This document shows, one piece after another, positions 43,635-57,995 of a stretch of 64,000 nucleotides of DNA. The number at the start of each line of letters is the position of its first letter. Position 1 is the first letter of the stretch. A model generated the notes under the pieces. It was given only the letters and a program-made list of their open reading frames with translations, searched no databases and was not told where the DNA came from. The position numbers and the translations under genes were made by a program. Origin of the DNA: Eubacteriaceae bacterium ES3 (GTDB lineage Bacteria; Bacillota; Clostridia; Eubacteriales; Eubacteriaceae); contig CP130741.1 in the NCBI GenBank assembly GCA_030586155.1, positions 1,916,680 to 1,980,679 on the forward strand, given 5' to 3'.

Positions 43635-44012
43635 TCAATTATCCCATTTAAGAATCCCAGTTTCTTCTGCTTCTTCATAAACGCGAATCTTATAGTTAAG
43701 TCGATCCAGTGTTTTTTGCATGTCAGCCATTTTATCCTCTATTTTTTTACGTTCTTCGGTTAAAAGCTCTTTTCTGGCAATAATGGTTTCATCGCCCTGC
43801 TGGGTTAAAGCAGAATATTCAATCAAAGCTTCAATCGGAATCCCTGCAGAACGCATGCAAATAACCAGTTCAATCCAGGAACAGGATTGTTCATCATAGT
43901 CACGATTGCCATTTTTCGCCCTGGGAACCGGCGGGATCAGACCGACTCGCTCATAATATCTTAAAGTATCCTGGCTAATATTATATCTTTTACTGACTTC
44001 AGAAATTGTCAT
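43635..44012 (-). CDS. MerR-family regulator
   Basis: 125 residues. MerR helix-turn-helix TISEVSKRYNISQDTLRYYERVGLIPPVPR is followed by the coiled-coil dimer helix (about 85-115) and no cysteine metal site. It resembles the MerR regulators of aldehyde or electrophile genes (AdhR-like). It is 23 nt downstream of an aldo/keto reductase whose promoter (45248-45278) has a classical MerR operator. Confidence 0.9.
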   Translation of the reverse strand: MTISEVSKRYNISQDTLRYYERVGLIPPVPRAKNGNRDYDEQSCSWIELVICMRSAGIPIEALIEYSALTQQGDETIIARKELLTEERKKIEDKMADMQKTLDRLNYKIRVYEEAEETGILKWDN

Positions 44013-44035
44013 CGTATCACCTGCTTTATAATCTT

Positions 44036-45160
44036 CTAAGACACTTCAAAAGTTTTAGCCACTTCTTTCAGTTCTTTAATAATCTCAATATGCTGAGGAC
44101 AGGAATCTTCACACTTTCCGCATTCAATGCAGTCAGAAGCCTTTCCATGCTCCTTAATCAGATTATTGTAATAAACCTTTTGCGTTGAAAACACCTGGGG
44201 GATAGACTGTTTTTCGGCGTTATAAAGGGCAAAATAGTCAGGTATCGCTATATCTTCTGGGCATCCATCAACACAATATTGACAGGCCGTACAAGGCACC
44301 GCAATTGCTTCATTAATAATCTCGACTGTTTTAGAAACCAGCTCTTTTTCTTTATCATTTAAAGGTTTAAAATCACGCATGTATTCCGTATTATCAAGAA
44401 GCTGATCATAATCTGACATTCCGCTCAAAACTACCATTACCTGTTCAAGGCTGGCGGCATAACGAATGGCCCAGGAAGGAATAGACATCTCCGGATTTGA
44501 TGCTTTTAAAAGGGCAACTGCGTTTTCAGGAATATTAGCTAGGGTTCCACCTTTAACCGGCTCCATAACAATTACTTTTTTACCGTGTTTTACCGCCACT
44601 TCATAACATTTTCGGGATTGAATGCTTTTGTTGTCCCAATCCAGATAGTTGATCTGCAGCTGAACAAAATCTACTTCCGGGTGTGCAGTCAGAATTTCAT
44701 CAAGGAGCTGAGCACAATCATGATAGGAAAAACCAATTTCTCTAATCTGACCAGCAGCTTTTTTATCACTGATAAATTTAAAAGCATCGGTGTCCTTTGC
44801 AATTTTATAGTGAGAGACATTTAGATTATGCAGCATATAATAATCAAAGTATTCAACACCACATTTTTCCAACTGTTCGTTAAAAATTCTTGGTAAGTCT
44901 TCTTTTGTTTTAAGAAACATGGTTGGTAGCTTCGTAGCAACCGTAAATGAGTCGCGAGGGTGTCGTTTGACCAGCGCTTCTCTTAAGGCAATTTCACTGG
45001 TAAAGTTATGGTACATATAGGCTGTATCAAAATATGTGAAACCTCTTTGCAGAAAAGTATCAACCATTTTTTCAAGTTGATTCATATCGATACTTTTAGA
45101 ATCCTCTGCATTTAAAAGCGGCAGACGCATAAATCCAAAGCCGAGTTTTTTTTGATCCAT
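44036..45160 (-). CDS. Aldo/keto reductase with C-terminal ferredoxin domain (copy 2)
   Basis: 374 residues, paralogous to the copy at 42377-43498. AKR barrel motifs are [11 protein letters not shown] and [10 protein letters not shown]; cluster motifs are [12 protein letters not shown] and [15 protein letters not shown] at 45160 follows AAAGGAG. It is the first gene after a MerR-type promoter and is followed by the merR gene, which suggests an inducible detoxification or redox role. Confidence 0.9.
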
Positions 45161-45247
45161 TTTTGCTCCTTTTTTCTATTTAGTTAAATAATCTCTAATA
45201 AAGACACTTGTTTCAATTGGGCGCTAAATTTTATTCTCTCATATAAT

Positions 45248-45278
45248 ACTTTAACACTTGGAGCCGGCTCTAAGTCAA
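45248..45278 (-). promoter_or_regulatory. MerR-type promoter with 19-bp spacer
   Basis: Minus strand: -35 TTGACT (45278-45273), 19-nt spacer, -10 TAAAGT (45253-45248). Between them is the 20-bp palindrome ACTTGGAGCCGGCTCTAAGT (45256-45275, one mismatch). This matches the operators of MerR regulators of aldehyde-type genes, in which a long spacer is corrected by regulator twisting. It would drive the AKR-merR pair. Confidence 0.8.
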
Positions 45279-45294
45279 GTGTTTTAATCTTTAT

Positions 45295-46665
45295 TTAAGC
45301 CTTTTTACGGTTTCTGACAGCAACGCCCATAATAAGTGCAGTAAAGGCTAAAACCGGAACAATGATTTCCCAGATTGGTTCAGATTCCTGATAAACCGTT
45401 GGAACTCCTGTCAGTTTACCATAAGCCTCACCCATAAGAAGATGGGCATAAGTATCGCTGTCAGATTCTTTGACTGCTGTCATTTCAAAACCGGCATCCT
45501 TTTGGAAAATCATGACGTAATCTGATCCGCCAAACAAAAAATATCCCAGCATATCACCCTTTTCGACAACTGTTCCTGATTGAATGTTATCTTCAAAAAG
45601 TACCGATGACACCTGTGACATACCGACCGGCAACAAAGCGACCAGACCATATTCATTAGTTTCCATAATAACACAACCCCGGGTCTCTACAGCCTGCCAT
45701 CCATACTCCTCAGCATTGAGCATATATCGACTAGCTTCTTCATCCCAATAGGTTATGCCGCCAACAGCATCATCCTGATAGATCGTTCGAACTTCCAGAA
45801 TTGTGCCACTGACCGGGAAATGAAAGCGGTGGTAATCCTGAACATTTAAAAAGGTATGGGTTAATATCCCGCCGGCAAATGCATCTGCATAATCACTTCC
45901 TTCTCCTAAAAGTGATTCGATGGAATCAAAAGTCATCGATTTAATTTTTACGCCATCACCAACCACTCGGGAATCTTCGTCAATATTCCATACTCCCTGG
46001 GGAACAGAATCTGCTGGGGAAACAACAATTGAATCGTCATCCGACGAATCAATCGGACGTTCATCTGGTGATTTCAGATAACGGCTGAAAAAATCGTTAA
46101 AACTGTGCCAGTTAGATGGATCTTCATACCAGCCATTTTGCAGCCCAAAATCCGGATTATCATAAGCTGTCTGATAATAGCTTTCATTCCATGAATCAGA
46201 GGTACTTAGATATTCACCCCACTCTTTAGTGAACTTGATCATCCAGGATCGATAGGGTTCATAATACTGAAGAGAGTTGTTGTAGAACCCCATCCCTTCC
46301 AAAGCATCCAGAGGCTGGTCTGTCAGAAAATAAAAATAATCCAGACTTTGATCAATCTGATCATAAAGCCCCGGATATGAGTCCCCAACTCCTGGTAGTA
46401 TGGTCCAAGGCATGGCTTTTGATGCCCAGTCAATATAATCATAAAATTCGTCCAGTGACTGAACCGGGTTTGAATCTTTGTCTGGATTAGCCACTTTTGC
46501 CAGGTTAATAGATTCAACCAGCAATTCTTCAAGTTCCGGGTTATGTTCTACCATCAGAATCAATTCTTCAGTAATTTGTTCATGCGTTGCTGTTTCAGCC
46601 AAAACAAGCGAAAAACTAGCCAGCCATAAACAGATTGTCATAAAAGCAAGGACTTTCTTTTTCAT
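45295..46665 (-). CDS. Exported phosphatidylserine-decarboxylase-like protein
   Basis: 456 residues. It has a signal peptide (KKKVLAFMTICLWLASFSLVLAE), a N-terminal region of about 150 residues, then blocks of the phosphatidylserine decarboxylase (PSD) family: WHSFNDFFSRYLK, VVSPADS, ILTHTFLNVQDYHRFHFPVSG and GYFLFGGSDYVMIF, where the serine of GGS would be the self-cleavage residue (GST in most PSDs). A final membrane helix (about 435-452) ends in RNRKKA. Known PSDs are cytoplasmic-face membrane enzymes without a signal peptide, so an outer-surface PSD-like enzyme is unusual. Substrate unknown; self-cleavage is not proven. Confidence 0.8.
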   Translation of the reverse strand: MKKKVLAFMTICLWLASFSLVLAETATHEQITEELILMVEHNPELEELLVESINLAKVANPDKDSNPVQSLDEFYDYIDWASKAMPWTILPGVGDSYPGLYDQIDQSLDYFYFLTDQPLDALEGMGFYNNSLQYYEPYRSWMIKFTKEWGEYLSTSDSWNESYYQTAYDNPDFGLQNGWYEDPSNWHSFNDFFSRYLKSPDERPIDSSDDDSIVVSPADSVPQGVWNIDEDSRVVGDGVKIKSMTFDSIESLLGEGSDYADAFAGGILTHTFLNVQDYHRFHFPVSGTILEVRTIYQDDAVGGITYWDEEASRYMLNAEEYGWQAVETRGCVIMETNEYGLVALLPVGMSQVSSVLFEDNIQSGTVVEKGDMLGYFLFGGSDYVMIFQKDAGFEMTAVKESDSDTYAHLLMGEAYGKLTGVPTVYQESEPIWEIIVPVLAFTALIMGVAVRNRKKA

Positions 46666-46773
46666 ATTTTCACCCCTTAAAAAATAGCAGTTTGAGTAGA
46701 TTTATAATCGGACTAATAATAAACTGCGTATAACTTTCCCTAATTTCTTACCCTGTGATTACAAAAATATAAC

Positions 46774-46796
46774 AAAAAAGAGCTTATTAAGCTCTT
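46774..46796 (-). terminator. Terminator after the GNAT gene
   Basis: Minus strand: AAGAGCTT-AAT-AAGCTCTT followed by TTTT. It separates the acetyltransferase gene from the PSD-like gene. Confidence 0.8.
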
Positions 46797-46866
46797 AAAT
46801 CCATCCAGTCAGGCCTTATCCTTTTTGGCTCTTTAGTCACATATTCCTTCAAACACCTTATATTAG

Positions 46867-47379
46867 TCAGCAATCCCTAATTAAAGCGTAAAGACACATA
46901 TCTTCAAACTGCCCATTTTTATAGGCATACTTTCTCATAATTCCTTCCAGGTTAAAACCAGCCTTTTCAAGAACCCTGCGGGAAGCAGCATTTCTGGAAA
47001 ATGGCTCTGCAAAAATTCGAACAATATCAGATTCTAAAAATATCTTATCGCAGATTTGCTCAACAGCCTTAGTACAGACACCCTTTCCCCAAAAGGGTTC
47101 ACCGATAAAGTAACCCATTTCACCGGAACGAAAATGAATATTTTCCTGTCTAAAAATGCCAATATTTCCTACAATCCCATCATTTTCATCAACTATCGCA
47201 TAAACATATGACTTGCCAAGCTCCGTATCCTCGACCATCTCTATATAGTTTCTGGCATCCTCAAGGGTATAGGGAAAAGGCAAACCATCTCGCAAATTGT
47301 CATGAATCCTTTTGTTATTGATCACCTGCATCAGGCCGTAGGCATCATCCATTTTCCATTTCCGCAAATGTGTTTTCAA
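46867..47379 (-). CDS. GNAT acetyltransferase (RimJ/RimL-like)
   Basis: 170 residues. GNAT fold of the RimJ/RimL subgroup: YFIGEPFWGKGVCTKAVEQI is the acetyl-CoA pyrophosphate-binding loop region (Q/RxxGxG-like), and RNAASRRVLEKAGFNLEG the later motif. It acetylates an amine, possibly an antibiotic, peptide N-terminus or ribosomal protein; the substrate is not known. Confidence 0.88.
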   Translation of the reverse strand: MKTHLRKWKMDDAYGLMQVINNKRIHDNLRDGLPFPYTLEDARNYIEMVEDTELGKSYVYAIVDENDGIVGNIGIFRQENIHFRSGEMGYFIGEPFWGKGVCTKAVEQICDKIFLESDIVRIFAEPFSRNAASRRVLEKAGFNLEGIMRKYAYKNGQFEDMCLYALIRDC

Positions 47380-47448
47380 TTATTCCTCTCCTTTTTACAA
47401 AAGCATGTTCAGTTCTTTTCAGATCTCCAATCACATGAAAGAGATATA

Positions 47449-49989
47449 TCAAGAAACATTTTCGACTGCATTCTTAACAATAATTGTTTGATCTTTAATT
47501 GATTTAACAAATAGATATGCTAGTTCTGGATCAAATTGCCTTCCTGACTCTTCCTGGATAATTTTCAATGCACTACTAACTGAGTATGCTTTTTTATAGG
47601 ACCGCTCTGAGATCATCGCATCAAATGAATCGACAATACATAATATCCTAGCCATTAGAGGAATATCCTGTTTTGCTATCTTTCGAGGATAACCTAAGCC
47701 ATCATACCGCTCATGATGTCCCATAACGGCTGGAATAACGTAATCAAGTGAAGGTAAATGCCTGATAATTTCGATGGAACTTTCTACATGGCCTTTCATT
47801 ATTTCATATTCTTCTTCCGTTAACGCACCGGGCTTATTTAGAATTTGTTCCGGAATGCCAATTTTCCCAATATCATGGAGCAACGCCGCTTCTTTAATTA
47901 TTTCTGCACTTTCTTCACTCATTCCAAATGCATATGCCAATTCGACAGCATAATAGGCTACATTATTTGAATGATTAAAGGTGTAATGATCTTTTGTATC
48001 GATGGCAGCTGTAAGTGCATAGATTGTTGCTTCATACTCAGAATAAACATTTTCTCTTATATCAGTTCTACTGGTTGCTTTACCTCGAAAAGCAATAGAA
48101 TCGCGTTCTGAATAAATCATGATTGCATTCTTTCCGTGCCGTTTAATATGATAAATTGCTCTTTCTACATTATCAATTAATTCTTTGACACTACTGGCTG
48201 CGAAAGGAATACCGCTGATACCAACACTAACTGTTAATGTTTTTAAACGTATTCTTATTTCCTTTTCATTCATTTCTAAAATCTGCAACTGGATATTTTC
48301 AGCCAGATTTTTTGCTCCCAGTAAATCATATTGTGGCAATATTGCAGCAAATTCTTTTCCATTATAACGTGCTGCATAACCGTTTTCACCAACTGATGCT
48401 CTAATTATATCAGCAATTCTCTGAAGTGCAACATCCCCTTCCTTGTTTCCATATAACTGGTTGTATAACTTAAAATCATCTATATTGAACATTACCAAAG
48501 CAAGAGACTGGTCTTTTTTATTTTCAAATACTTCCTTTAGTGTTTCATAAAAATATTTGCGGTTTAAAAGACCTGTTAATTCGTCAGTTTGAGCTTCACG
48601 ACATGCTTTTTCATAAAGCCTTGAATTGCTTACCGCAATAGAAGCAATTGAATTGATGGACGCTAAAAAATTAATCTCATTATAAGAGTATGATTTTCGA
48701 CCTACACGATCAGCCAGCAAAATCATTCCTACTAGTTCAGGTCCATCTGTTAAAGCAACTAAACATTCTATCCCAAGATCATCAAGTTCTTTTTTCTCTG
48801 TCTCCCACAACGATTTATAATCTATTGAGTGTTTAAACTCCTTTATCAGTAAATATCCTTCATCCTTTTGAAGCCGTTTAACAAGCGGATTATCATTACG
48901 AATACTCCAATCTCTTCTGTCTAGAGGACTTGTACTGTGAACAATCTCAAATTGGACATTATTTTCATTAAGAATGCAAATATATACTTTTTTAACTTTG
49001 ATCGCATCCAGCAAAACATCCTGAACTTCTGTGAGAATCTCTTTAATTTCTAATGTCTTTGATATTTTCGAACTAAATTTTTTCAAACTTTCAGCATAAA
49101 AAAGTTCATCTTTTGTAAAGACTTTGTCAAGAAATCGTTTCATTGCGTAATATATACCTGATGTACTGGCAGCAAATAAAACTGCAATGATTAGAACACT
49201 ATGGTCTCGATAAGCAGAAAAATTATTATCGATAAATGTTTGAAACAGTCCCACTAAGTTTGAAAAAAGTAAGAGCGACAGAGCTGCTGACAGCCCATAA
49301 CAGGTTCCTCTTGAAACCAGTAAAGTCAAATTAAACAAATTCTGTTTATACAAAGCATAAAAGAGAAAAAAAGAAAATAACACTCCTGACAATATATCTG
49401 TCGGAAATCCCTTAAAAATAGGAATAAATAATGCCATATGTCCAATAACAATCGTTAAAACCCCTAAAATTATTGGTCTGAACTGTTTACCCGCAATTGG
49501 CTTTTTTTTACTGAACCGAAAGATTAAAAATAAGGCATGAAATGTGATCAACCCACAAATTAGAAAGAGAAAAACCACAGTCCATGAAACATCATAAATA
49601 AATGCAGTCCTACCTATTTCTGTAATAACAACTGTTGGTGGTGGTAAAAAAAAGTCTGTTATAATATTGATAAGATTAATTATTCCTATACTAATTAAAT
49701 AAAATCGCGAAAAGAAATAGTCTTTTACTCCAATGAATTCGGTGATAAAGCGAAAAAATGAAAATGGCATCAGACATAATCCTAATACAGATAAATGATA
49801 CCAAAGCTCAAAAGAAGGCCACAATTCCAGTCTCATACAAAGAGAACCACCGGTCCATAAGATCATTGCCATTAAAAACAATAAGAAAGAATTGATCAAT
49901 TTGCTCTTTTTCGCAGCCATAAAAGCCATAAACAAAAAGCTGTAACAACATAAAGCAATGATTGGTATAAATACGTAATTATCCATCAT
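47449..49989 (-). CDS. Membrane signalling protein: 7TM-GAF-GGDEF-HD-GYP
   Basis: 846 residues. N-terminal seven-helix sensor of the histidine-kinase 7TM type (about 5-290), a GAF domain (about 315-455), a GGDEF domain (about 465-620) whose motif is YNGKEF (about 541) in place of GGDEF, and an HD-GYP domain (about 660-840) with LLHDIGKIGIP (about 703) and HHERYDGLGYP (about 760). The HD-GYP motifs are intact, so it may break down cyclic di-GMP. The changed GGDEF is probably not a cyclase but could bind GTP. Its ATG overlaps the GH3 stop by 4 nt. Confidence 0.9.
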   Translation of the reverse strand: MMDNYVFIPIIALCCYSFLFMAFMAAKKSKLINSFLLFLMAMILWTGGSLCMRLELWPSFELWYHLSVLGLCLMPFSFFRFITEFIGVKDYFFSRFYLISIGIINLINIITDFFLPPPTVVITEIGRTAFIYDVSWTVVFLFLICGLITFHALFLIFRFSKKKPIAGKQFRPIILGVLTIVIGHMALFIPIFKGFPTDILSGVLFSFFLFYALYKQNLFNLTLLVSRGTCYGLSAALSLLLFSNLVGLFQTFIDNNFSAYRDHSVLIIAVLFAASTSGIYYAMKRFLDKVFTKDELFYAESLKKFSSKISKTLEIKEILTEVQDVLLDAIKVKKVYICILNENNVQFEIVHSTSPLDRRDWSIRNDNPLVKRLQKDEGYLLIKEFKHSIDYKSLWETEKKELDDLGIECLVALTDGPELVGMILLADRVGRKSYSYNEINFLASINSIASIAVSNSRLYEKACREAQTDELTGLLNRKYFYETLKEVFENKKDQSLALVMFNIDDFKLYNQLYGNKEGDVALQRIADIIRASVGENGYAARYNGKEFAAILPQYDLLGAKNLAENIQLQILEMNEKEIRIRLKTLTVSVGISGIPFAASSVKELIDNVERAIYHIKRHGKNAIMIYSERDSIAFRGKATSRTDIRENVYSEYEATIYALTAAIDTKDHYTFNHSNNVAYYAVELAYAFGMSEESAEIIKEAALLHDIGKIGIPEQILNKPGALTEEEYEIMKGHVESSIEIIRHLPSLDYVIPAVMGHHERYDGLGYPRKIAKQDIPLMARILCIVDSFDAMISERSYKKAYSVSSALKIIQEESGRQFDPELAYLFVKSIKDQTIIVKNAVENVS

Positions 49990-51629
49990 GCCCTCCCGAA
50001 ATTCACCTGAATAACCTGGCCATAATTTTCGGTATCCAGAAGCTCTCTGATTTGATGTGTAAAAGGATTGATCCGTCTAATTTCAGAACTATTTCTTTTC
50101 TTATATCGTTCAAAGGTCCCGCATTTTAAAATTGTAATTTCCAATGGGTCTATTCCCAAAATTTTTTTTAAATCCTTATAGTCTTGATCTACGTATTTGA
50201 AATATACTGTTAAATGTTCTTTTAAGATTTCCCGACTGATTGCATGATTAACTAAAGACTGCGCTTTCATTTCAACATATAGATGCAGAAATGGCCGTGA
50301 ATTTTGATTATATTCTTTTGCGGCAACCCAATCCTTAATGTCAATCCCAGATAAATCAATGGCGGTCCCAATTGAATGCTCAGTAATCCTAGTAAATCCG
50401 GCAATGTCAATTATTTCTGGAACTCTATCTATATATTTGAAACGGGGAATATTTGTCTGGTCATTTGCATTTTTTAACCCGACACAGCGGTATACATCAC
50501 CGACACGATATCGCATAAAAGCACCGCCTTTAAACACAGATACAACTAATTCGTACTTTTCTCCTTCTTCAACTTCATTCATTAAGACAGTCTTAGGTTG
50601 ATATTTAGGGTTGTTGTAACTAAGATTCATTTCCCTTTCAGAAATAAATTCATAAAAACAGGCATCTGGGAAAAAGTACATACCATCTCTAGTCCAGGTT
50701 TCTGTACCAATACAAGTTGGTTCTGTTCCAGCAAATATTTCCATTGGGCGAACACCCCATAAATCTTCCAGATCATCTTTATAACATTCATTATCAGTAC
50801 CGGCAACCATAAAACCTTTTAATTTAAAAAGATCCTTTGGTTTAATTTCTCTATTTTCATTCTTGCAACGGATTTTAGCTATTAAATATCTACCTATCAT
50901 GGAAAATGAATAATTTTTAAAGATGTCTCGATTTTCTGTTTTCCCAGCTTGTACACGATTCATCTTCGATAAACTTAAACTTACAAAATAAGTAACGCTC
51001 CCTAATCCAAAAAAATAATCAATATTTTTTTTAAGTCCAAGTTTAAAACCTTTTTTATTTCGTTCACTGAATGTCATTTTTTCCGCTTCTTTGACAGGTG
51101 GTAAGAATTCGATTCCAATTTCTTCATTAAAAACCAGAGGAAGTAACCCCGTTGCATAAGGTAGAGGTGCGAGTCCGTAAAGAATAGTATCATTAGCAGT
51201 AACGTCGAAGTGACCTTTTTCAAAACTTGTCGAAAGCATTAGACATGCCATAGTATTATTTCGATATGTATCCATCATCCCTTTTGTATACGGTGCTATT
51301 TTAAGAGGTTGTTTGCCCCCCTCCCAAGTTGTCTGGATCCATAATAATGGTTGTTCTGGTAGCATTTCGTCTTTTTTTTGCAACAGTATACCGGCATAGT
51401 CACTATATGTTGTCAGCGGTAATAAATGTCTGAAATTTTCGATTGAAGTTGGATTTTTTCCTTTAAGAATCTGTTTTCCCAGCTCAGATCGGCCCCAGAG
51501 ACTAATCTGTTCTTCCATCAATCTATTTTGGATCTCCATATAACCATTTAGATCTAAATCTAGAAATCCACAATACTCATTCCAGATCTCATCTCTACGC
51601 TGTTTTTTTAACTTCTCCTCAAATTTCAT
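49986..51629 (-). CDS. GH3-family acyl-adenylate-forming protein
   Basis: 547 residues of the GH3 family, known in plants for acyl-acid amido synthetases that conjugate jasmonate, auxin or salicylate to amino acids. Family blocks here include SYSFSMIG-like FSMIGRYLIAK, EIFAGTEPTCIGTETWTRDG, ELVVSVFKGGAFMRYRVGDVYRC and FKYIDRVPEIIDIAGFTRITE. Bacterial GH3 proteins are poorly described. It lies 2 nt from the methyltransferase-like gene and overlaps the HD-GYP gene by 4 nt, so the three proteins are made together. The acid and amine substrates are unknown. Confidence 0.85.
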   Translation of the reverse strand: MKFEEKLKKQRRDEIWNEYCGFLDLDLNGYMEIQNRLMEEQISLWGRSELGKQILKGKNPTSIENFRHLLPLTTYSDYAGILLQKKDEMLPEQPLLWIQTTWEGGKQPLKIAPYTKGMMDTYRNNTMACLMLSTSFEKGHFDVTANDTILYGLAPLPYATGLLPLVFNEEIGIEFLPPVKEAEKMTFSERNKKGFKLGLKKNIDYFFGLGSVTYFVSLSLSKMNRVQAGKTENRDIFKNYSFSMIGRYLIAKIRCKNENREIKPKDLFKLKGFMVAGTDNECYKDDLEDLWGVRPMEIFAGTEPTCIGTETWTRDGMYFFPDACFYEFISEREMNLSYNNPKYQPKTVLMNEVEEGEKYELVVSVFKGGAFMRYRVGDVYRCVGLKNANDQTNIPRFKYIDRVPEIIDIAGFTRITEHSIGTAIDLSGIDIKDWVAAKEYNQNSRPFLHLYVEMKAQSLVNHAISREILKEHLTVYFKYVDQDYKDLKKILGIDPLEITILKCGTFERYKKRNSSEIRRINPFTHQIRELLDTENYGQVIQVNFGRA

Positions 51630-51631
51630 AT

Positions 51632-52201
51632 TTACTCCATCTCCGAATGCCAGGATTTACAACAGACCCTGAAACTATTTTTGTTTGGAATAAGAAAAGG
51701 AGTGTTCCTTTGATAGTCCTTATAATCCTCAAATAAATTTGTAAACGTCCATGAATCTTGAAAAATCACATAAATCAAATTACATATATTAAATATCAAA
51801 CCCATCCAAAAAAGTTGCAGAGAATCAAATGCCAGCCAAATAAAGAAGTAAAATCCAGCAAAAAACAATACTCCAGGATGTCTGCAAAGCGCGTAAATTC
51901 CAGTTTGACAAATTTTATTAGGTCCATCAACATACGTTTCTTTAAAAGGTAAAGCAAAGAAAAGTGTGTAAATCAATAACCCTAACATAACAATTGAAAT
52001 AATTCCAAAAGCAATCATTCTAGAGGCAATAAATCCATTTTTTATTAACTCAGAACAAATCGCCCAACTCGTCGAAAAAACAAGCATTATAATACCGATG
52101 AAAAAAAATTGTTTAAATAGTTTTCGTTTTAAGATAATACTATTAATATCATATAATACAAAGAATAAAAATGCAGTTACACCAAGACTAATCATTATCA
52201 T
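51632..52201 (-). CDS. ICMT-like membrane methyltransferase family protein
   Basis: 189 residues with about five membrane helices and the motif CQTGIYALCRHPGVLFFAGFYFFIW, then FEDYKDYQRNTPFLIPN, matching the isoprenylcysteine carboxyl methyltransferase/phospholipid methyltransferase family (RHP and E/DxxY...Y regions). It may methylate a lipid or a carboxyl group. It is the first gene of the GH3/HD-GYP operon. A GGAGG ribosome-binding site precedes the ATG. Confidence 0.78.
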   Translation of the reverse strand: MIMISLGVTAFLFFVLYDINSIILKRKLFKQFFFIGIIMLVFSTSWAICSELIKNGFIASRMIAFGIISIVMLGLLIYTLFFALPFKETYVDGPNKICQTGIYALCRHPGVLFFAGFYFFIWLAFDSLQLFWMGLIFNICNLIYVIFQDSWTFTNLFEDYKDYQRNTPFLIPNKNSFRVCCKSWHSEME

Positions 52202-52281
52202 TATATTCCTCCAGGAAAATATGAATAAAGTTCGTAATTTCTATCATTAAAATGCATTTTACAAAAGTTGGTACAAATATA

Positions 52282-52310
52282 ATGATACTATCATTTTAAA
52301 TATTTTGCAA
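52282..52310 (-). promoter_or_regulatory. Predicted promoter of the ICMT-GH3-HD-GYP operon
   Basis: Minus strand: -35 TTGCAA (52310-52305), 17-nt spacer, -10 TATCAT (52287-52282). The leader to the first ATG is about 75 nt. Confidence 0.4.
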
Positions 52311-52334
52311 ACCTTTTATAGCTGACAAAATAGC

Positions 52335-52442
52335 TGTTTAGGAGGCTTTTTTAGTGCGGGAAGATTATTAATTTGGTAAACATAACTAGAAAAGTTCACA
52401 CCAAAGCCTCTGAAACAAGCGTTTGAGTGGGAACTTTTTTTA
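52335..52442 (-). terminator. Hairpin region after the chemoreceptor gene
   Basis: Two inverted repeats occur: AAAGTTC/GAACTTT (about 52391-52440), flanked by T and A tracts, and GAGGCTTT/AAAGCCTC (about 52340-52414). They overlap and cannot both form. They probably end the FIST-chemoreceptor transcript and isolate it from the GH3 operon. Confidence 0.5.
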
Positions 52443-52471
52443 ACTATTTTTTATCTTTGAAAATGACTATT

Positions 52472-53407
52472 TTACACTTCATCAAGCATATTCTCCATCT
52501 GCTGCAAAAAGTCTATAACACTGCAAATAATACTGGATTTTTTACTCATTTTTATATTAAGTGTGTCTATTTTTTCACCAAAAGAATCTACTACCTGAGA
52601 AATCGCCCCAAATCCTTCAGCAGCGCCATTAATCCGATTGCTGGTACTTTCAATCCCGTCAATGATCTGATGACTGAAATTTTTGATGTCAGCAGTACAC
52701 CCTTCCACTTCACTTGTGTTTTGTTTTACATCTTCTACTTTCTTTAGGCTAGCCCTACTGATTGATTTTGAATTGATGATCTCCTTTTTAACATCTTCAA
52801 TACTTTTAAGCATTGCCATTAAATTGTCGTCTATCCCCTCCACCAGATCTTTGGTGGACTTAGACAGCCTTCCCATTTCTTCGGCGACAACCGCAAAAGC
52901 CATTCCAGCACTTCCGGCCCGTTCAGATTCAATTGAAGCGTTAAACGCCAGTAGTTTTGATTGCATCGCAATGCTGTTAATACCATTGGATAGATTTCTG
53001 ATATTTGAAAAATCAGCTTCCAGCCGATTGAAAACATTTGTTATATTATCGAGCTGATCATTTGTTGTATGAATATTTTCAGCCAGTTCATCAACATTAG
53101 ATTCAGTGTGATCAATCACTTCCATCGAATGATCAATAATCTCATTTATCTGATTGGCATAAGACCCAAAATTTTTAAAATCGTCATTGATTTTTCCAGT
53201 CATATCTCCGATATTTGAAATTTGAGAATATGTATCGGCAACATCTTCAAGGTAATCGGATACCTCGATCTCCTCCTGCATCAACTGATCGATTTTTTCT
53301 TCAATATGTTGAACGCCGAACTGCAGACTTGAACAGGTTTTATTTAAATTCTCAGCCCTCAGATCGCCTTCACTGTTGTTATCTCTTTGTAAGAATTCCT
53401 TGTTCAT
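52472..53407 (-). CDS. Soluble methyl-accepting chemotaxis protein
   Basis: 311 residues, no membrane helix and no HAMP domain. The signalling tip is near SIAMQSKLLAFNASIESERAGSAGMAFAVVAEEMGRLS, a variant of the usual [15 protein letters not shown]. It has long coiled-coil helices before and after. It follows the FIST gene by 12 nt, so FIST probably supplies the sensing part. I chose the ATG at 53407, nine bases after AGGAG; an ATG at 53416 is also open. Confidence 0.85.
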   Translation of the reverse strand: MNKEFLQRDNNSEGDLRAENLNKTCSSLQFGVQHIEEKIDQLMQEEIEVSDYLEDVADTYSQISNIGDMTGKINDDFKNFGSYANQINEIIDHSMEVIDHTESNVDELAENIHTTNDQLDNITNVFNRLEADFSNIRNLSNGINSIAMQSKLLAFNASIESERAGSAGMAFAVVAEEMGRLSKSTKDLVEGIDDNLMAMLKSIEDVKKEIINSKSISRASLKKVEDVKQNTSEVEGCTADIKNFSHQIIDGIESTSNRINGAAEGFGAISQVVDSFGEKIDTLNIKMSKKSSIICSVIDFLQQMENMLDEV

Positions 53408-53419
53408 TAATTTCATCTC

Positions 53420-54520
53420 CTACTCAAATACTGCCAAAATCATGGTCTGATTAAAATGCTGCTCTCTCAGCTGCTCCCCATATCCCGAGAATCCTACATA
53501 ATTGCCAACGGTATTCCCTACTATTTTAGCAAATTCATTGAGAAACCCTTCTGACTCAAATAACATTGAACGAGCCAGACAGTTGACCATCAAGGTCAAT
53601 GAGGGTTTTGGGCAATCATTTTTAACCTGTTCAAGGGTTTTTCTAATTACTGCCCGATAATCGTCTGGTTCTAAAAGCACAATCTGTGAATTATTATAGA
53701 TTCTTGCGTGATATTCCATCGCTCTTCCATCGACTACCTGATTATTGGCAACTATAAACATCTCATTTCCAATAATTCTTCCTAAAGGATATTTATCCAG
53801 TAGCCCTGGCATTTCTCTAACACTGACTCCCAAGGCATCGGCCATCACATTTGCAGCCGGCTTCTGATTATATTCTCTCACGACTCGACTTCTTACATCA
53901 ACCGAGGTGGATTTAAAGGAATGCTTTGTCGGCTTATAGATATTTTCCCGATAAAATCTTATTTTTCCACCCTGATTTTCTATCATTACAAATACAGAAG
54001 CATCCTGATAAGTTATCCCGTTTAAGGCTATCATTGTTTCTTCAGCATTACCATGATCACCAGATGATCCGCCGAATACCGGAATTTTCTTTTTTACCAA
54101 AACTGCGTTCAGAGTTGATAACACCAGTTCTTCACAGCGAATCAAAGCACTGGAAAATTCCAGACAAAAGGTATTTTCTGGCCGGTTAAAGTCTCTGGAT
54201 GCCGCTTCAACTCGGCTAAAATTTTTTAGCGGATATTTATCAGCATTCTCAAGTATACCGGCCTTACAGCGAATACCATCTTCAAAACCAATTATCATCA
54301 ATGTTTCCTTATAAGCACCGTCTTTGCAAAATGCGGCAAAAGTGGTTGCGCCCATGGTAATCGCTTCCGGAAACTGCTCACTAATGCGTTTGGTATACTC
54401 AGGGAAATCCTCAACCCCCGAGAAATAGAGTACAAGCTTAGGATGACGTAGTTCTCTGCAAGCTTCACTGAGTGCAAGCTCCGGTTGAGAATTGTTGCTA
54501 AAACCTATTCGATAATTCAT
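53420..54520 (-). CDS. FIST domain sensor protein
   Basis: 366 residues containing FIST N and FIST C domains. Features are LVLYFSGVEDFPEYTKRISEQFP, MGATTFAAFCKDG, VPVFGGSSGDHG, SVREMPGLLDKYPLGRII and NCLARSMLFESEGFLNEF, GNYVGFSGYGE. FIST domains are thought to sense small ligands, often amino acids, in signal transduction. No membrane helix is seen. Co-transcribed with the soluble chemoreceptor, it likely feeds a cytoplasmic chemosensory signal. Confidence 0.88.
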   Translation of the reverse strand: MNYRIGFSNNSQPELALSEACRELRHPKLVLYFSGVEDFPEYTKRISEQFPEAITMGATTFAAFCKDGAYKETLMIIGFEDGIRCKAGILENADKYPLKNFSRVEAASRDFNRPENTFCLEFSSALIRCEELVLSTLNAVLVKKKIPVFGGSSGDHGNAEETMIALNGITYQDASVFVMIENQGGKIRFYRENIYKPTKHSFKSTSVDVRSRVVREYNQKPAANVMADALGVSVREMPGLLDKYPLGRIIGNEMFIVANNQVVDGRAMEYHARIYNNSQIVLLEPDDYRAVIRKTLEQVKNDCPKPSLTLMVNCLARSMLFESEGFLNEFAKIVGNTVGNYVGFSGYGEQLREQHFNQTMILAVFE

Positions 54521-54631
54521 ATAATGTTCCTTTCGCCTTGATTCTGTTCCATTTAAGTATTTTTATTAGTATACTATAAAGATCAAGTGAAAAAAACCGT
54601 AATATTGTAAAGTTTTTGGTTTAAATAAATA

Positions 54632-54657
54632 CAAAAGCAGGTGATTGCTCACCTGCT
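54632..54657 (-). terminator. Terminator after the P-type ATPase
   Basis: Minus strand: AGCAGGTG, loop AGCAAT, CACCTGCT (54657-54636), then TTTTG. Confidence 0.85.
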
Positions 54658-54667
54658 GTATAAATCA

Positions 54668-57328
54668 TTATTGGAAAAATTTCCTGCGAATCATGCCACC
54701 GAACAGTTTTGTCAGCTCTACTATTACAATCGGCATAAGTGATGCAATAACAACGATCAGCCATTGTGTTGCATTTAAACTGACAACATCAAAAATCGGC
54801 TGAGCTGCCGGTATCAGGATTACTGCTAACTGCAGCACCAGTGATATCCCAATTGCCCCCCATAAATATGGATTTGAAAACAAATCCGGTCCAAAAATTG
54901 ATTTTTTTTCTGAACGAACATTGATCACATGTGCCAACTGCGAAAGCCCAAGTACTGCAAAGCACATAGTTCTGGCAACATCAATTCCATATGATAAAAG
55001 ATCCATCTCAAAGACAAACAGCGAAATAACTGCCAGTATCACACCCTGATAAATGATGCGTCCACCCAGTCCATGAGAAAAAATACTTTCTGTTAACCTT
55101 CTTGGTTTTTCATTCATAATTTTAGATTCTTTTTTCTCTACCCCCAGGGCTAAGGCCGGAAGGCTATCGGTAATCAAGTTAATCCATAAAATATGAACCG
55201 GTAAAAGCGGCTGCATCCAGCCCACCAATGAAGCAGTAAACAGAATCAGAATTTCTGCAATGTTGCAGGACAATAGAAAATGAATTGCCTTTCGGATATT
55301 GGCATAGATCCCTCTACCTTCCTCGACTGCGGTAACAATGGTTGAAAAGTTATCATCTGTCAAAATCATTTCAGCTGCTTCTTTTGAGACATCCGTCCCA
55401 GTGATTCCCATTGCACATCCAATATTGGCTTTTTTAAGAGCAGGCGCATCATTAACACCATCTCCTGTCATCGCCACTACTTCACCTTTTCGCTGCCAGG
55501 CATCTACTATTCGAACCTTGTGTTCAGGGGCTACACGGGCATAAACAGCAATATTTTCGATTTTCTGATCAAGTTCTTCATCGCTCATCTTCGATAATTC
55601 AATACCGGTAAAGGCCAGGCTCTTTTTCTCAAAAATCCCCAATTCTTTTGCTATAGCAACCGCTGTATTCTTATGATCACCGGTTATCATTACTGTTCTG
55701 ATGCCGGCTTTTTTACACTTTTTAATCGAATCCTTAACTTCCTCACGAGGCGGGTCAATCATCCCGGTCAGGCCGCAAAATATCAGATTGTCTTCAAGAT
55801 TTTCGGTGTTTACTTCGGGCATTTCATCAAATTTCTTATAGCCATAGGCAATAACCCGATAAGCCTGATCAGATAAATGATTATTCTCAGCCTGAAGTTT
55901 TTCATTAACCGCTTCATTACATTCAATTATTGTTTCACCAGAAAAGATATGGGAACTTCGATTTAAAATAATATCCGGCGCGCCCTTGGTAAAACTGTAA
56001 TAGGCGTCACCGATCTGGTGAACAGTGGTCATTAATTTTCGGTCGGAATCAAAGGGTAGTTCACCTACTCTTTGATGTTTTTCTTCCTGGCTGGATTTCT
56101 GGTAATTATAACGATTAGCCAGAGCGATCATCGCGACTTCCGTGGGATCTCCAATTTCCTGAGTGCCAGTCTTACTTTCTACAATATTTGAGTCATTACA
56201 CAATAAACCAATTTCAACAACCAGCTTCTGTGCCGGACTCAAGGAATCCTTAGTCAGATTATTGACATCAGTAATCTGGTCATCAGCAAATATTTTTTCA
56301 ATGGTCATCTTGTTCTGGGTTAGTGTTCCTGTTTTATCAGAACATATAACTGAAGCACAACCCAAAGTTTCCACTGCTGGCAGTTTTCTGATAATAGCAT
56401 GTTTGGAAACCAGTCGCTGCACTCCTATCGCCAAAACGACTGTTACAATCGCTGGTAATCCTTCTGGGATTGCAGCAACCGCCAGGCTGATTGCAGTCAT
56501 AAATAACAGGAGTGGATCTCCACCTCTAACCATACCAATGCCGAAGACCAATGCACAGGCAATAAGTGCTCCGATTGCCAGCGTTTTTCCCAGCTCTTCC
56601 AGTTTTTTCTGAAGCGGTGTCTGCAGTGATTTCGTTCCCTGAATCATCCCGGCAATTTTTCCTATTTCAGTTTTCATTCCAGTTGCCGTAACAATAAAAC
56701 GACCACGCCCATAATTAACCAGGCTACTGGAATAAACTGAGTTTACCCGATCTCCCAAGGGTGTATCAGGATCCGAAATATCGATCAGTTCCTTTTCGAC
56801 AGGAACTGATTCTCCAGTCAGTGATGACTCAGTAATTTTTAATGAGGCTGCATCAATTAAGCGACCATCTGCAGGAACTATATCACCGGCATCAAGAAAA
56901 ACAATATCACCTGGAACCAGGTCTTCCGATTTAACGACCTTTTGTTCGCCATTACGAAAAACTTTAGCTTCCGGAATCGTCATCTGCTTTAATGCTTCCA
57001 TAGAGCTTTCGGCTTTTTTCTCCTGGATAGCACCAATCAGAGCATTAACAATCACAATTATTATAATCAGGATTGCATCGCTTAATTCACCTACAAATCC
57101 AGAAACAATTGCTGCAACCAGCAAAACAATGATCAGGAAATCTTTAAACTGGGACAAAAACATCTCAATAAATGTTCGACGTTTTCCTTCATTCAGTTTG
57201 TTGACACCAAACTCTTGCTGCCGTTTTTTAACGTCATCAGAATCCAGACCTTTTGTCTGATCCACCTCATAAACTTTTTCTAATTCCTCACTGGCAATTA
57301 GAAAACTTTCCTCTTTGTTCAAATGCAC
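54668..57328 (-). CDS. P-type cation ATPase (Ca2+/Mn2+ type)
   Basis: 886 residues of the P-type IIA (SERCA/PMCA-like) group: actuator loop LTGESVPVEK, phosphorylation site CSDKTGTLTQNK (Asp near 331), nucleotide-binding KGAPD and hinge TGDGVNDAPALKKANIGCAMG, with about ten membrane helices. Group IIA enzymes are annotated as calcium pumps. The gene sits behind a yybP-ykoY riboswitch, which senses Mn2+ and in Lactococcus controls the related ATPase YoaB. A manganese exporter is therefore more likely than a calcium pump (inference). A long repeat-rich leader separates the riboswitch and start codon. Confidence 0.9.
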   Translation of the reverse strand: MHLNKEESFLIASEELEKVYEVDQTKGLDSDDVKKRQQEFGVNKLNEGKRRTFIEMFLSQFKDFLIIVLLVAAIVSGFVGELSDAILIIIIVIVNALIGAIQEKKAESSMEALKQMTIPEAKVFRNGEQKVVKSEDLVPGDIVFLDAGDIVPADGRLIDAASLKITESSLTGESVPVEKELIDISDPDTPLGDRVNSVYSSSLVNYGRGRFIVTATGMKTEIGKIAGMIQGTKSLQTPLQKKLEELGKTLAIGALIACALVFGIGMVRGGDPLLLFMTAISLAVAAIPEGLPAIVTVVLAIGVQRLVSKHAIIRKLPAVETLGCASVICSDKTGTLTQNKMTIEKIFADDQITDVNNLTKDSLSPAQKLVVEIGLLCNDSNIVESKTGTQEIGDPTEVAMIALANRYNYQKSSQEEKHQRVGELPFDSDRKLMTTVHQIGDAYYSFTKGAPDIILNRSSHIFSGETIIECNEAVNEKLQAENNHLSDQAYRVIAYGYKKFDEMPEVNTENLEDNLIFCGLTGMIDPPREEVKDSIKKCKKAGIRTVMITGDHKNTAVAIAKELGIFEKKSLAFTGIELSKMSDEELDQKIENIAVYARVAPEHKVRIVDAWQRKGEVVAMTGDGVNDAPALKKANIGCAMGITGTDVSKEAAEMILTDDNFSTIVTAVEEGRGIYANIRKAIHFLLSCNIAEILILFTASLVGWMQPLLPVHILWINLITDSLPALALGVEKKESKIMNEKPRRLTESIFSHGLGGRIIYQGVILAVISLFVFEMDLLSYGIDVARTMCFAVLGLSQLAHVINVRSEKKSIFGPDLFSNPYLWGAIGISLVLQLAVILIPAAQPIFDVVSLNATQWLIVVIASLMPIVIVELTKLFGGMIRRKFFQ

Positions 57329-57340
57329 CCTCCTCTTTCA

Positions 57341-57354
57341 TCCGGCTTACGCCG
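57341..57354. repeat. Short perfect hairpin in the ATPase leader
   Basis: CCGGC-TTAC-GCCGG just upstream of the ATPase start codon. It is in the transcribed leader and may be an isolated member of the GC-rich repeat family downstream of the riboswitch. Confidence 0.4.
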
Positions 57355-57422
57355 GTTTACCACCAAATGAATTGAATAAACTATTACAATAAGTCATAGA
57401 CGCGTTTGTGAAAAATGTTGCC

Positions 57423-57706
57423 AGGCATTCGTCAGTGCTAATGCGCCGACTCATCGCGGGCTTCGCCGTATGCTTTAAGCCGGGTACTCGTCGGTGCTGA
57501 CACACCGACTCATCACGGGCTTCGCCGTTTGTCTTAAGCCGGGCACGAGTTGGTGCTGACGCACCAACTCGTCGCGGGCTTCGCCGTTTGTCTTAAGCCG
57601 GGCACGAGTTGGTGCTGACGCACCAACTCGTCGCGGGCTTCGCCGTTTGTCTTAAGCCGGGCACGAGTTGGTGCTGACGCACCAACTCGTCGCGGGCTTC
57701 GCCCGC
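57423..57706. repeat. Five tandem copies of a 59-bp hairpin-forming repeat
   Basis: Copies begin at 57423, 57482, 57541, 57600 and 57659. Copies 3 and 4 are identical, and copy 5 is identical until it diverges near 57704. Each has a 12-bp stem (ACGAGTTGGTGC and GCACCAACTCGT, loop TGAC in copies 3-5) followed by CGCGGGCTTCGCCG and CTTAAGCC. Copy 2 has GTCGGTG/CACCGAC in place of GTTGGTG/CACCAAC, a compensatory change. Copies 1 and 2 are less alike. It is in the leader of the ATPase transcript. Confidence 0.93.
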
Positions 57707-57707
57707 C

Positions 57708-57772
57708 GCAGGTGTGTGTTTTAATTCCGTCTTGAAAGCGAGCTTTCATCCTGAATTAAAACACACACCTGC
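57708..57772. repeat. 19-bp perfect inverted repeat with nested hairpin
   Basis: GCAGGTGTGTGTTTTAATT (57708-57726) and its exact reverse complement (57754-57772) enclose a 27-base loop that holds GAAAGC-GA-GCTTTC (57734-57747). It directly follows the 59-bp repeats. Structure alone does not show whether it is a terminator-like leader element or a miniature mobile element. Confidence 0.85.
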
Positions 57773-57792
57773 GCCCGGCTTCATTTTTCGCG

Positions 57793-57840
57793 CAAAAAAA
57801 CCTTTACCCCCACAGAGATGGTTACTGTGGAAATAAAGGT
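57793..57840 (-). terminator. Terminator of the Mn2+ riboswitch
   Basis: Minus strand: ACCTTTA...CCACAG, loop, CTGTGG...TAAAGGT followed by seven T. The 5' arm ACCTTTA (57840-57834) is also the 3' strand of the aptamer P1 helix (GACCTTTA). The two structures exclude each other, so metal binding should disrupt the terminator and switch the ATPase on. Confidence 0.85.
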
Positions 57841-57940
57841 CTGACTCCAAGATTACTTGTTATTTAGCCGGGGTAATTGGTTATTACCCGTATTGACGAC
57901 TAAACAAATCCTTTCGGTGAGCTACTCCCCTTTAGGTTTA
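57834..57940 (-). promoter_or_regulatory. yybP-ykoY (manganese) riboswitch
   Basis: Minus strand: AAAGGGGAGTAGC (57933-57921), then GTCGTCAATACG, a GGTAAT...ATTACC stem, CCGGCTAAATAAC and GACCTTTA. These are the conserved blocks of the yybP-ykoY family as known from Lactococcus yoaB (GTCGTCAAT, CCGGCTTTGTTGAC). P1 pairs AAAGG with CCTTT. It lies upstream of a P-type ATPase, as in that known case. -10 box TATAAT at 57958-57953. Confidence 0.92.
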
Positions 57941-57995
57941 TTCTTTATGTGAATTATATTAACATATTTTATAGATTTAAAAAAGTCATTTTTGA

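Follow-up and report, generated by a model that had tools for sequence, protein, structure and literature searches.

A three-gene operon with GH3-like, ICMT-like and HD-GYP proteins as a candidate chemosensory unit in Clostridia

We describe a three-gene operon in a 64,000-nucleotide stretch of the genome of Eubacteriaceae bacterium ES3 (contig CP130741.1, positions 1,916,680 to 1,980,679), here called the window. It occupies window positions 47449-52201 on the minus strand and encodes, in this order, an integral membrane protein of the ICMT/PEMT superfamily (putative methyltransferase), a divergent GH3-like protein (predicted adenylate-forming ligase) and a membrane sensor with GAF-like, degenerate GGDEF and HD-GYP domains (Table 1). 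The three genes are inherited as one unit, and the best explanation for the operon is that it constitutes a self-contained chemosensory unit. We give about an even chance to the reading in which the two enzymes produce or modify a lipophilic molecule derived from an acid, and the sensor responds to this product and changes the level of cyclic diguanylate (cyclic di-GMP).

Conservation and co-inheritance of the operon

The first-pass annotation of this region, made from the letters of the DNA, had proposed a three-gene operon, and the operon is real: the three minus-strand genes are separated by gaps of +2 and -4 nucleotides, and the arrangement is kept across many families. The end then assigned to it, 52310, takes in 109 nucleotides located 5' of the first start codon. 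A scan of genome contigs with the GH3-like protein gave 30 loci of 60-80% identity, 29 of which hold all three genes; in the thirtieth (L055; loci and genomes bear L and G numbers) the contig begins inside the GH3 gene. Profile searches covered 398 Bacillota genomes and 391 genomes of the class, and reached distant members with down to about 34% GH3 identity. These searches score part of the first-look candidates, and weak relatives could escape them. The operon is present in 7 of the 40 genomes of the window's family, all within the window's genus (7 of 19 there), and its type in 6 of the 391 genomes of the class sample. Searches around G058 and G306 returned 1 and 13 genomes, all known already.

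Altogether 50 distinct loci were found via the GH3-like gene, counted without L004-L010 and L028 (covered by the window and L130-L135) and without L093 (same contig as L029). The order methyltransferase-like, GH3-like, sensor is kept as far as the contigs reach. The methyltransferase-like gene is seen in 48 of these loci; in a forty-ninth, L090 (G326), it lies on another contig together with the GH3 N-terminus. Four loci contain a broken gene, left as is (GH3 in L049 and L053, sensor in L045 and L134). An apparent fusion of GH3 and sensor in G202, a 1388-residue open frame, was rejected because an in-frame TAG stands between the two genes.

Co-occurrence in relatives was the test that the first-pass annotation had set for its own proposal. 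It was run, and the genes do co-occur. Among the 398 genomes, the methyltransferase profile matched 46 at E <= 0.001, of which 13 strongly (92.7-242.6 bits, the next being 42.5), and these are exactly the 13 genomes with an operon-type GH3. The other 9 of the 22 genomes with any GH3 match score only 26-50 bits. The probability of this 13/13 overlap is 1.2e-24 under independence of genomes, which genomes lack. The 7TM-GAF profile of the sensor has a match in 93 of the 398 genomes, with 205-636 bits in the 13 operon genomes and further relatives at 164, 121, 108, 94, 57 bits and lower. Because the strong enzyme matches coincide in 13 genomes and the sensor-domain matches spread wider, both enzymes are restricted to the unit, in contrast to the sensor domain. 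Protein distances over 44 loci (without L045, L049, L053, L055, L090 and L134) are closely correlated, with Spearman coefficients of 0.81 for ICMT-GH3, 0.85 for ICMT-sensor and 0.93 for GH3-sensor and a largest permuted value of 0.31. Since the distances are correlated and the flanking genes vary between lineages, even inside the genus, we conclude that the three genes are inherited together.

The GH3-like protein

The GH3-like protein exceeds the Pfam cut-offs for GH3_M (56.0 bits) and GH3_C (24.8 bits) and stays under that for the GH3 N-terminal domain (17.6 against 23.6); it has no match in NCBIfam. GH3_M is matched in 33 of 33 aligned close members and GH3_C in 25 of them, at E <= 0.01. 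This alignment leaves out L004 (the window itself), L007, L049, L053 and L055, and it holds both L005 and L028, which are one contig. The predicted structure has a pLDDT of 81.3 and the GH3 fold, with plant GH3.6 (9fwd) aligned over 490 residues at Z 27.7 and a root mean square deviation (rmsd) of 5.1. Full-length matches to plant GH3 enzymes span 467-490 residues at Z 26-28, and other GH3 entries span 348-422 residues at Z 24.6-26.7. PaaK-type ligases reach Z 26.5 as well, over mostly shorter stretches.

Three motifs are informative here. Motif II is found as F/Y-x-G-T-E (FxGTE or YGGTE, once YGCTE) and motif III as RYR[VT]GD wherever they are visible, and all 33 aligned members have an identical DIAGFTR hinge. 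Motif I is rewritten: in place of (S/T)SGT(S/T)xGxxK, the 47 visible members show TTWEGG (38), TTWKGG (4), TTWECG (1) or TSG followed by K/R (4). On the GH3 tree, built without L049, L053, L055 and L090, this amounts to two changes if the single TTWECG row is grouped with TTWEGG; the tree has long branches, L091 most of all, and its deep joins are unsure. In excerpts of the paper on OlsH, a GH3-like protein of Singulisphaera, motif I of GH3 enzymes is given as (S/T)SGT(S/T)xG and its serine is essential in OlsH, as one Ser-to-Ala change abolishes function (PMC12493201).

Does this protein still have a catalytic function? Instead of acting as an enzyme, it could bind an acyl group or a nucleotide and regulate the sensor, as the motif I rewritten in 43 of the 47 visible members would suggest. 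We consider this very improbable. Motifs II and III and the hinge are kept, the altered motif I shows strict conservation of its own with four distant members (for example that of L088) retaining TSG, and a methyltransferase-like gene stands beside the GH3-like gene in 49 of 50 loci. Adenylation activity is thus likely, given the retained fold and the presence of motifs II and III, and this is tempered by the rewritten motif I. Elsewhere in the window's own genome, two GH3 family genes stand in tandem (L099, Table 1); they match the GH3 N-terminal domain at 273 and 177 bits, and the next two genes have about 580 codons each.

The ICMT-like membrane protein

The product of the first gene had been called ICMT-like. 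It stays under the Pfam cut-off and has no match in NCBIfam; among 34 family members, PEMT is matched in 12, ICMT in 10 and DUF1295 in 8 at E <= 0.1, the best E being 7e-5 to 6e-4. The family alignment was made without L004, L007, L028 and L055. The AlphaFold model (pLDDT 92.4) was compared by VIA-align with known structures, and six entries of the ICMT/steroid and sterol reductase fold scored Z 8.3-9.8, with the next entry at 6.3. Two ICMT entries led, 5vg9 (Z 9.8, rmsd 3.3, 131 residues aligned) and 4a2n (Z 9.6, rmsd 3.9, 143 aligned), and steroid and sterol reductases matched too (Z 8.3-9.2). Foldseek gave a best E of 0.18, the superfamily being separated only in this second look by VIA-align. 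As the protein's own profile scores are sub-threshold, the ICMT label rests on the family matches and the fold.

Typical ICMT/PEMT enzymes carry the motif set RHPxY...EE...YxxY...PxF, with a Glu-Glu pair. RHP and YxxY...P are kept in the family, the Tyr after RHP is replaced, and EE has become QD or QE, once ED. Because of the C-terminal YxxY...PF pattern, the protein is likelier a methyltransferase than a reductase of the same fold, and methyl transfer dependent on S-adenosylmethionine is its probable activity.

The matches to PEMT in 12 of the 34 members would also fit another function, i.e. membrane lipid tailoring. In this case the GH3-like protein would make an N-acyl amino acid (a lyso-amino-lipid), the ICMT/PEMT-like protein would methylate the head group, and the sensor would tune cyclic di-GMP to the state of the envelope, with no diffusible signal. 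A precedent exists, as OlsH is described as initiating ornithine lipid synthesis in an organism in which the lipid is methylated (excerpts of PMC12493201). In the neighbourhoods listed, where flanks were judged by non-recurrence and not all were annotated, neither an O-acyltransferase gene nor any other lipid gene recurs, and there would be no need for a dedicated cyclic di-GMP enzyme in each lineage if the genes served a lipid pathway. We therefore regard lipid tailoring as unlikely, and prefer the reading in which the enzymes' product is read by the sensor.

The membrane sensor

It is worth noting that the third protein carries a cyclic di-GMP domain in every locus. Two points correct its first-pass description, 7TM-GAF-GGDEF-HD-GYP: the number of hydrophobic peaks and the GGDEF motif. 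HisKA_7TM (39.9 bits, cut-off 28.6), GGDEF (121.8) and HD_5 (144.8) exceed their Pfam cut-offs, and GAF_3 is under it in the window protein (22.5 against 27), the GAF models each matching 8-9 of 30 family members. The Pfam 7TM region indeed shows seven hydrophobic peaks; averaged over the family, about nine are counted in all, two of them beyond this region. The GGDEF domain is present, with the motif itself reading NGKEF.

In place of GG(D/E)EF, 40 of the 50 sensors, the window protein included, have xxKEF, mostly SGKEF or NGKEF, and 10 distant members have (D/E)EF. On the GH3 tree (46 rows) the passage to xxKEF is a single change. The HD-GYP domain is present in 49 of 50 loci and its full signature HDxGK...HHExxDGxGYP in 48. 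The L091 sensor has HDIGLIA and an insert ahead of GYP; the L089 sensor lacks the HD-GYP domain and keeps the GGDEF signature. The sensor alignment was made without the truncated L004-L010 and without L045. Because HD-GYP is kept and GGDEF is changed to xxKEF, the sensors of the window's clade are most likely phosphodiesterases with an inactive GGDEF domain and cyclic di-GMP breakdown as output. The residues thus support the earlier suggestion that this protein may degrade cyclic di-GMP. The window's genome contains 64 GGDEF matches, and the sensor is therefore one among many cyclic di-GMP inputs.

Sister gene sets and an orphan sensor

Outside the operon, the sensor domain has its best relatives in an orphan sensor of G407 and a broken copy in G164, followed by 7TM-GAF-PAS histidine kinases in G403, G085, G083 and G339. 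These kinases belong to sister gene sets (Table 1) consisting of a class I methyltransferase, a beta-ketoacyl synthase, the 7TM-GAF-PAS histidine kinase, a GAF-PAS kinase and a REC-HD-GYP protein. All four kinases stand behind the beta-ketoacyl synthase, in which the Cys is kept and the second His is replaced by Asn; Cys and His have catalytic roles in these synthases. The class I methyltransferase stands in front in three of the four loci, and none was seen in G403 (L177). By Pfam, the REC-HD-GYP regulator ends the set in two, G083 and G339 (L179 and L180). The corresponding open frame in G403 is matched by the family's HD profile only, and the G085 contig (L178) is masked and ends. Since these sets pair relatives of the sensor domain with a beta-ketoacyl synthase and mostly a methyltransferase, the same logic of methyltransferase, acyl-handling enzyme, 7TM-GAF sensor and HD-GYP output seems to have been assembled with differing enzymes. 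The sister sets look like another undescribed signal-and-sensor set.

The orphan sensor, with the motif SGKVF, belongs to the same family; neither an operon-type GH3 nor an operon-type ICMT gene was found in its genome. It stands 68 nucleotides before an aromatic-acid-exporter-like gene (ArAE_1/FUSC_2). Although seen only once, this arrangement is suggestive of an acid ligand. This neighbour would also suit a sensor that detects an acid or ester from outside, host- or plant-derived and for example aromatic, with the two enzymes conjugating and methylating the compound and so ending the response or detoxifying it. Plant GH3 enzymes inactivate hormones by conjugation, which counts for this possibility, as does the origin of a number of named carriers from gut or rumen samples. 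The exporter link is one case, and the beta-ketoacyl synthase of the sister loci is a builder, not an inactivator. Inactivation of an outside acid is, in our estimate, quite unlikely.

Proposed function

In the reading that we favour, the GH3-like enzyme would adenylate a carboxylic acid (fatty or aromatic) and transfer it to an acceptor, which is most likely an amino acid. Capping by the membrane methyltransferase, either of this product or of a carboxyl group in the pathway, would yield a neutral molecule able to cross membranes. The sensor would bind that molecule with its many-helix membrane domain, and the GAF and GGDEF domains, the latter probably without cyclase activity, would relay binding to the cyclic di-GMP phosphodiesterase activity of HD-GYP. 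We infer the catalytic activities, the nature of the molecule, its role as sensor ligand and any action between cells. The first-pass annotation had suggested a possible joint role for the three proteins in producing or inactivating a small acid signal and in reporting it. Both the gene content and the sister operons are compatible with this idea, and the rewritten motif I counts against it.

Several points weigh against this interpretation. Motif I of the GH3-like protein is rewritten at the position essential in OlsH, so that adenylation may be lost or altered. The ICMT-like protein scores 18.5 bits against PEMT with a cut-off of 25, lacks the typical Glu-Glu, and shares its fold with reductases that use NADPH. 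The unit holds neither an exporter nor a transcription regulator. The sensor domain occurs beyond the unit, as the wide 7TM-GAF matches show, and the G407 orphan, at 353 bits, stands in a genome in which neither enzyme was found. Finally, the sister operons come from just four genomes of two families.

A bolder proposal, which we put forward as doubtful, is that the operon represents a new autoinducer class: an acyl- or aryl-amide methyl ester from the GH3-like ligase and the ICMT-like methyltransferase, read by a membrane receptor of its own that has direct hydrolysis of cyclic di-GMP as its output. It would be used by gut Lachnospiraceae and other Clostridia, and would belong to a larger set of systems that combine a methyltransferase, an acyl enzyme, a 7TM-GAF sensor and HD-GYP. 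If true, small-molecule signalling would have been overlooked in anaerobic Gram-positives, because the enzymes resemble plant hormone ligases and lipid methyltransferases. The named carriers include the gut species [Clostridium] clostridioforme and [Clostridium] asparagiforme. Cyclic di-GMP control in anaerobic Gram-positives would then have a chemically defined input, and the operon would provide a compact three-gene cassette for finding the ligand of the HisKA_7TM domain. The papers listed for this domain name are two that, judged by title, survey histidine kinases of archaea and of eukaryotes.

Genomic surroundings

In the neighbourhoods listed, the three genes are not accompanied by any recurring fourth one. 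A gene pair for an MCP-signal protein and a FIST/NosP-like protein lies upstream, separating the operon from a P-type ATPase gene; it is absent from the same site in G012 (L130) and is not part of the operon. The same holds for a downstream GNAT gene, which recurs only in L028/L130 and L131. At Rfam gathering scores, no riboswitch or other known RNA was found upstream (window 44000-58000). The promoter and terminator scan was at chance level (27 promoters for 27.0 expected, 4 terminators for 3.1) and its results were not used. PLSDB gave zero matches to plasmid-borne copies of the operon. The G+C content is about 0.33-0.34 over the operon (window about 48000-52200) versus about 0.40-0.45 over much of the window, and likewise 0.31-0.36 in L130 versus 0.41-0.43 for the larger flanking genes; the low value may reflect an old lateral transfer. 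Elsewhere in the window, a gene encodes a protein with a phosphatidylserine-decarboxylase-like domain (135.7 bits) and, by eye, an apparent signal peptide and a C-terminal membrane helix.

Table 1. Location of the operon, its motifs and domains, and other features mentioned in the text (window positions unless a locus is named).
Feature	Position	Strand	Residues or length	Remark
Gene 1, ICMT/PEMT-superfamily membrane protein, putative methyltransferase	51632..52201	-	189 residues
RHPG	51872..51883	-	107-110	in 48/48 members seen
Gln-Asp	51755..51760	-	148-149	QD mostly, QE some, ED once
Gene 2, divergent GH3-like, predicted adenylate-forming ligase	49986..51629	-	547 residues
Motif I position, TTWEGG	51315..51332	-	100-105	rewritten
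Motif II, FAGTE	50721..50735	-	299-303
Motif III, RYRVGD	50496..50513	-	373-378
Gene 3, membrane sensor, GAF-like + degenerate GGDEF + HD-GYP	47449..49989	-	846 residues
HisKA_7TM (PF16927)	49327..49956	-	12-221	two further hydrophobic stretches to about residue 285
GAF-like domain	48625..49050	-	314-455	under cut-off in window protein
GKEF replacing GGDEF	48349..48360	-	544-547
HD-GYP (HD_5)	47521..48006	-	662-823	HDIGKIG and HHERYDGLGYP
Sister set, L177	7580-14426	+		G403
Sister set, L178	332-7491	+		G085
Sister set, L179	4943-12559	-
Sister set, L180	7194-14860	+
Orphan sensor, L175	7642-10784	-		G407
Two tandem GH3 family genes, L099	9045-12407	-		G000, C1, about 2.62 Mb
MCP-signal and FIST/NosP-like gene pair	52472-54520	-
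Phosphatidylserine-decarboxylase-like gene	45295-46665	-

Comparison with known systems

RpfF is a crotonase-fold enzyme, RpfR a PAS-GGDEF-EAL protein and RpfG a REC-HD-GYP protein, the latter make-up being shared with the sister operons. Both RpfF/RpfR (BDSF, Burkholderia) and RpfF/RpfC/RpfG (DSF) resemble the operon in tying a signal-making enzyme to a sensor with cyclic di-GMP hydrolysis as output. They differ in their components: the enzymes of the window's unit are GH3-like and ICMT-like, and HD-GYP is fused there to a membrane domain of many helices. No crotonase-fold synthase is present, as by Pfam the three products are a GH3-like protein, an ICMT-like protein and the sensor, with no recurring further gene in the neighbourhoods listed. 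RpfR is described as a phosphodiesterase whose activity rises when it binds the fatty-acid signal BDSF, and FimX is a phosphodiesterase with a changed GGDEF motif whose activity is raised by GTP (PMC8846402). FimX-type proteins are thus like the sensor in having an altered GGDEF motif within a phosphodiesterase, and unlike it in using EAL where the sensor has HD-GYP.

The PhcB/PhcS/PhcR/PhcQ system of Ralstonia resembles our operon in that a fatty acid methyl ester, the product of a methyltransferase, is read by a linked sensor (PMC8578825, PMC11960443). In contrast to the window's sensor, PhcS belongs to the histidine kinases and acts on PhcA, a regulator. PhcR and PhcQ, both soluble, are regulators that lack DNA-binding domains, and the Ralstonia operon as described includes no ligase gene.

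With respect to the ligase, the plant GH3 amido synthetases (JAR1, GH3.6, GH3.12) share the fold and motifs II and III, and differ in motif I and in their 13-18% identity to the window protein. OlsH, with its partner OlsI, is the bacterial likeness, a GH3-like acyl-amino acid synthetase that makes N-acyl ornithine from free fatty acid. In the excerpts its motif I is TSGTTQGATK versus TTWEGG here, its partner is an O-acyltransferase and no sensor is named. Its BLAST matches are almost 90% from Bacteroidota, the rest mainly from Pseudomonadota and Planctomycetota, and bacterial GH3 functions are stated to be still open (PMC12493201).

Among the matches listed from open-licence PMC text, with subscription papers and preprints outside this scope, there is no description of such an operon, in agreement with the first-pass remark that no described system has this make-up. 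The general kind, an enzyme with a cyclic di-GMP-linked receptor, is already known. In the reading that we favour, at about even odds, the operon would work like RpfF/RpfR and PhcB/PhcS, which couple a signal-making enzyme to a sensor of its own; it is a member of neither.

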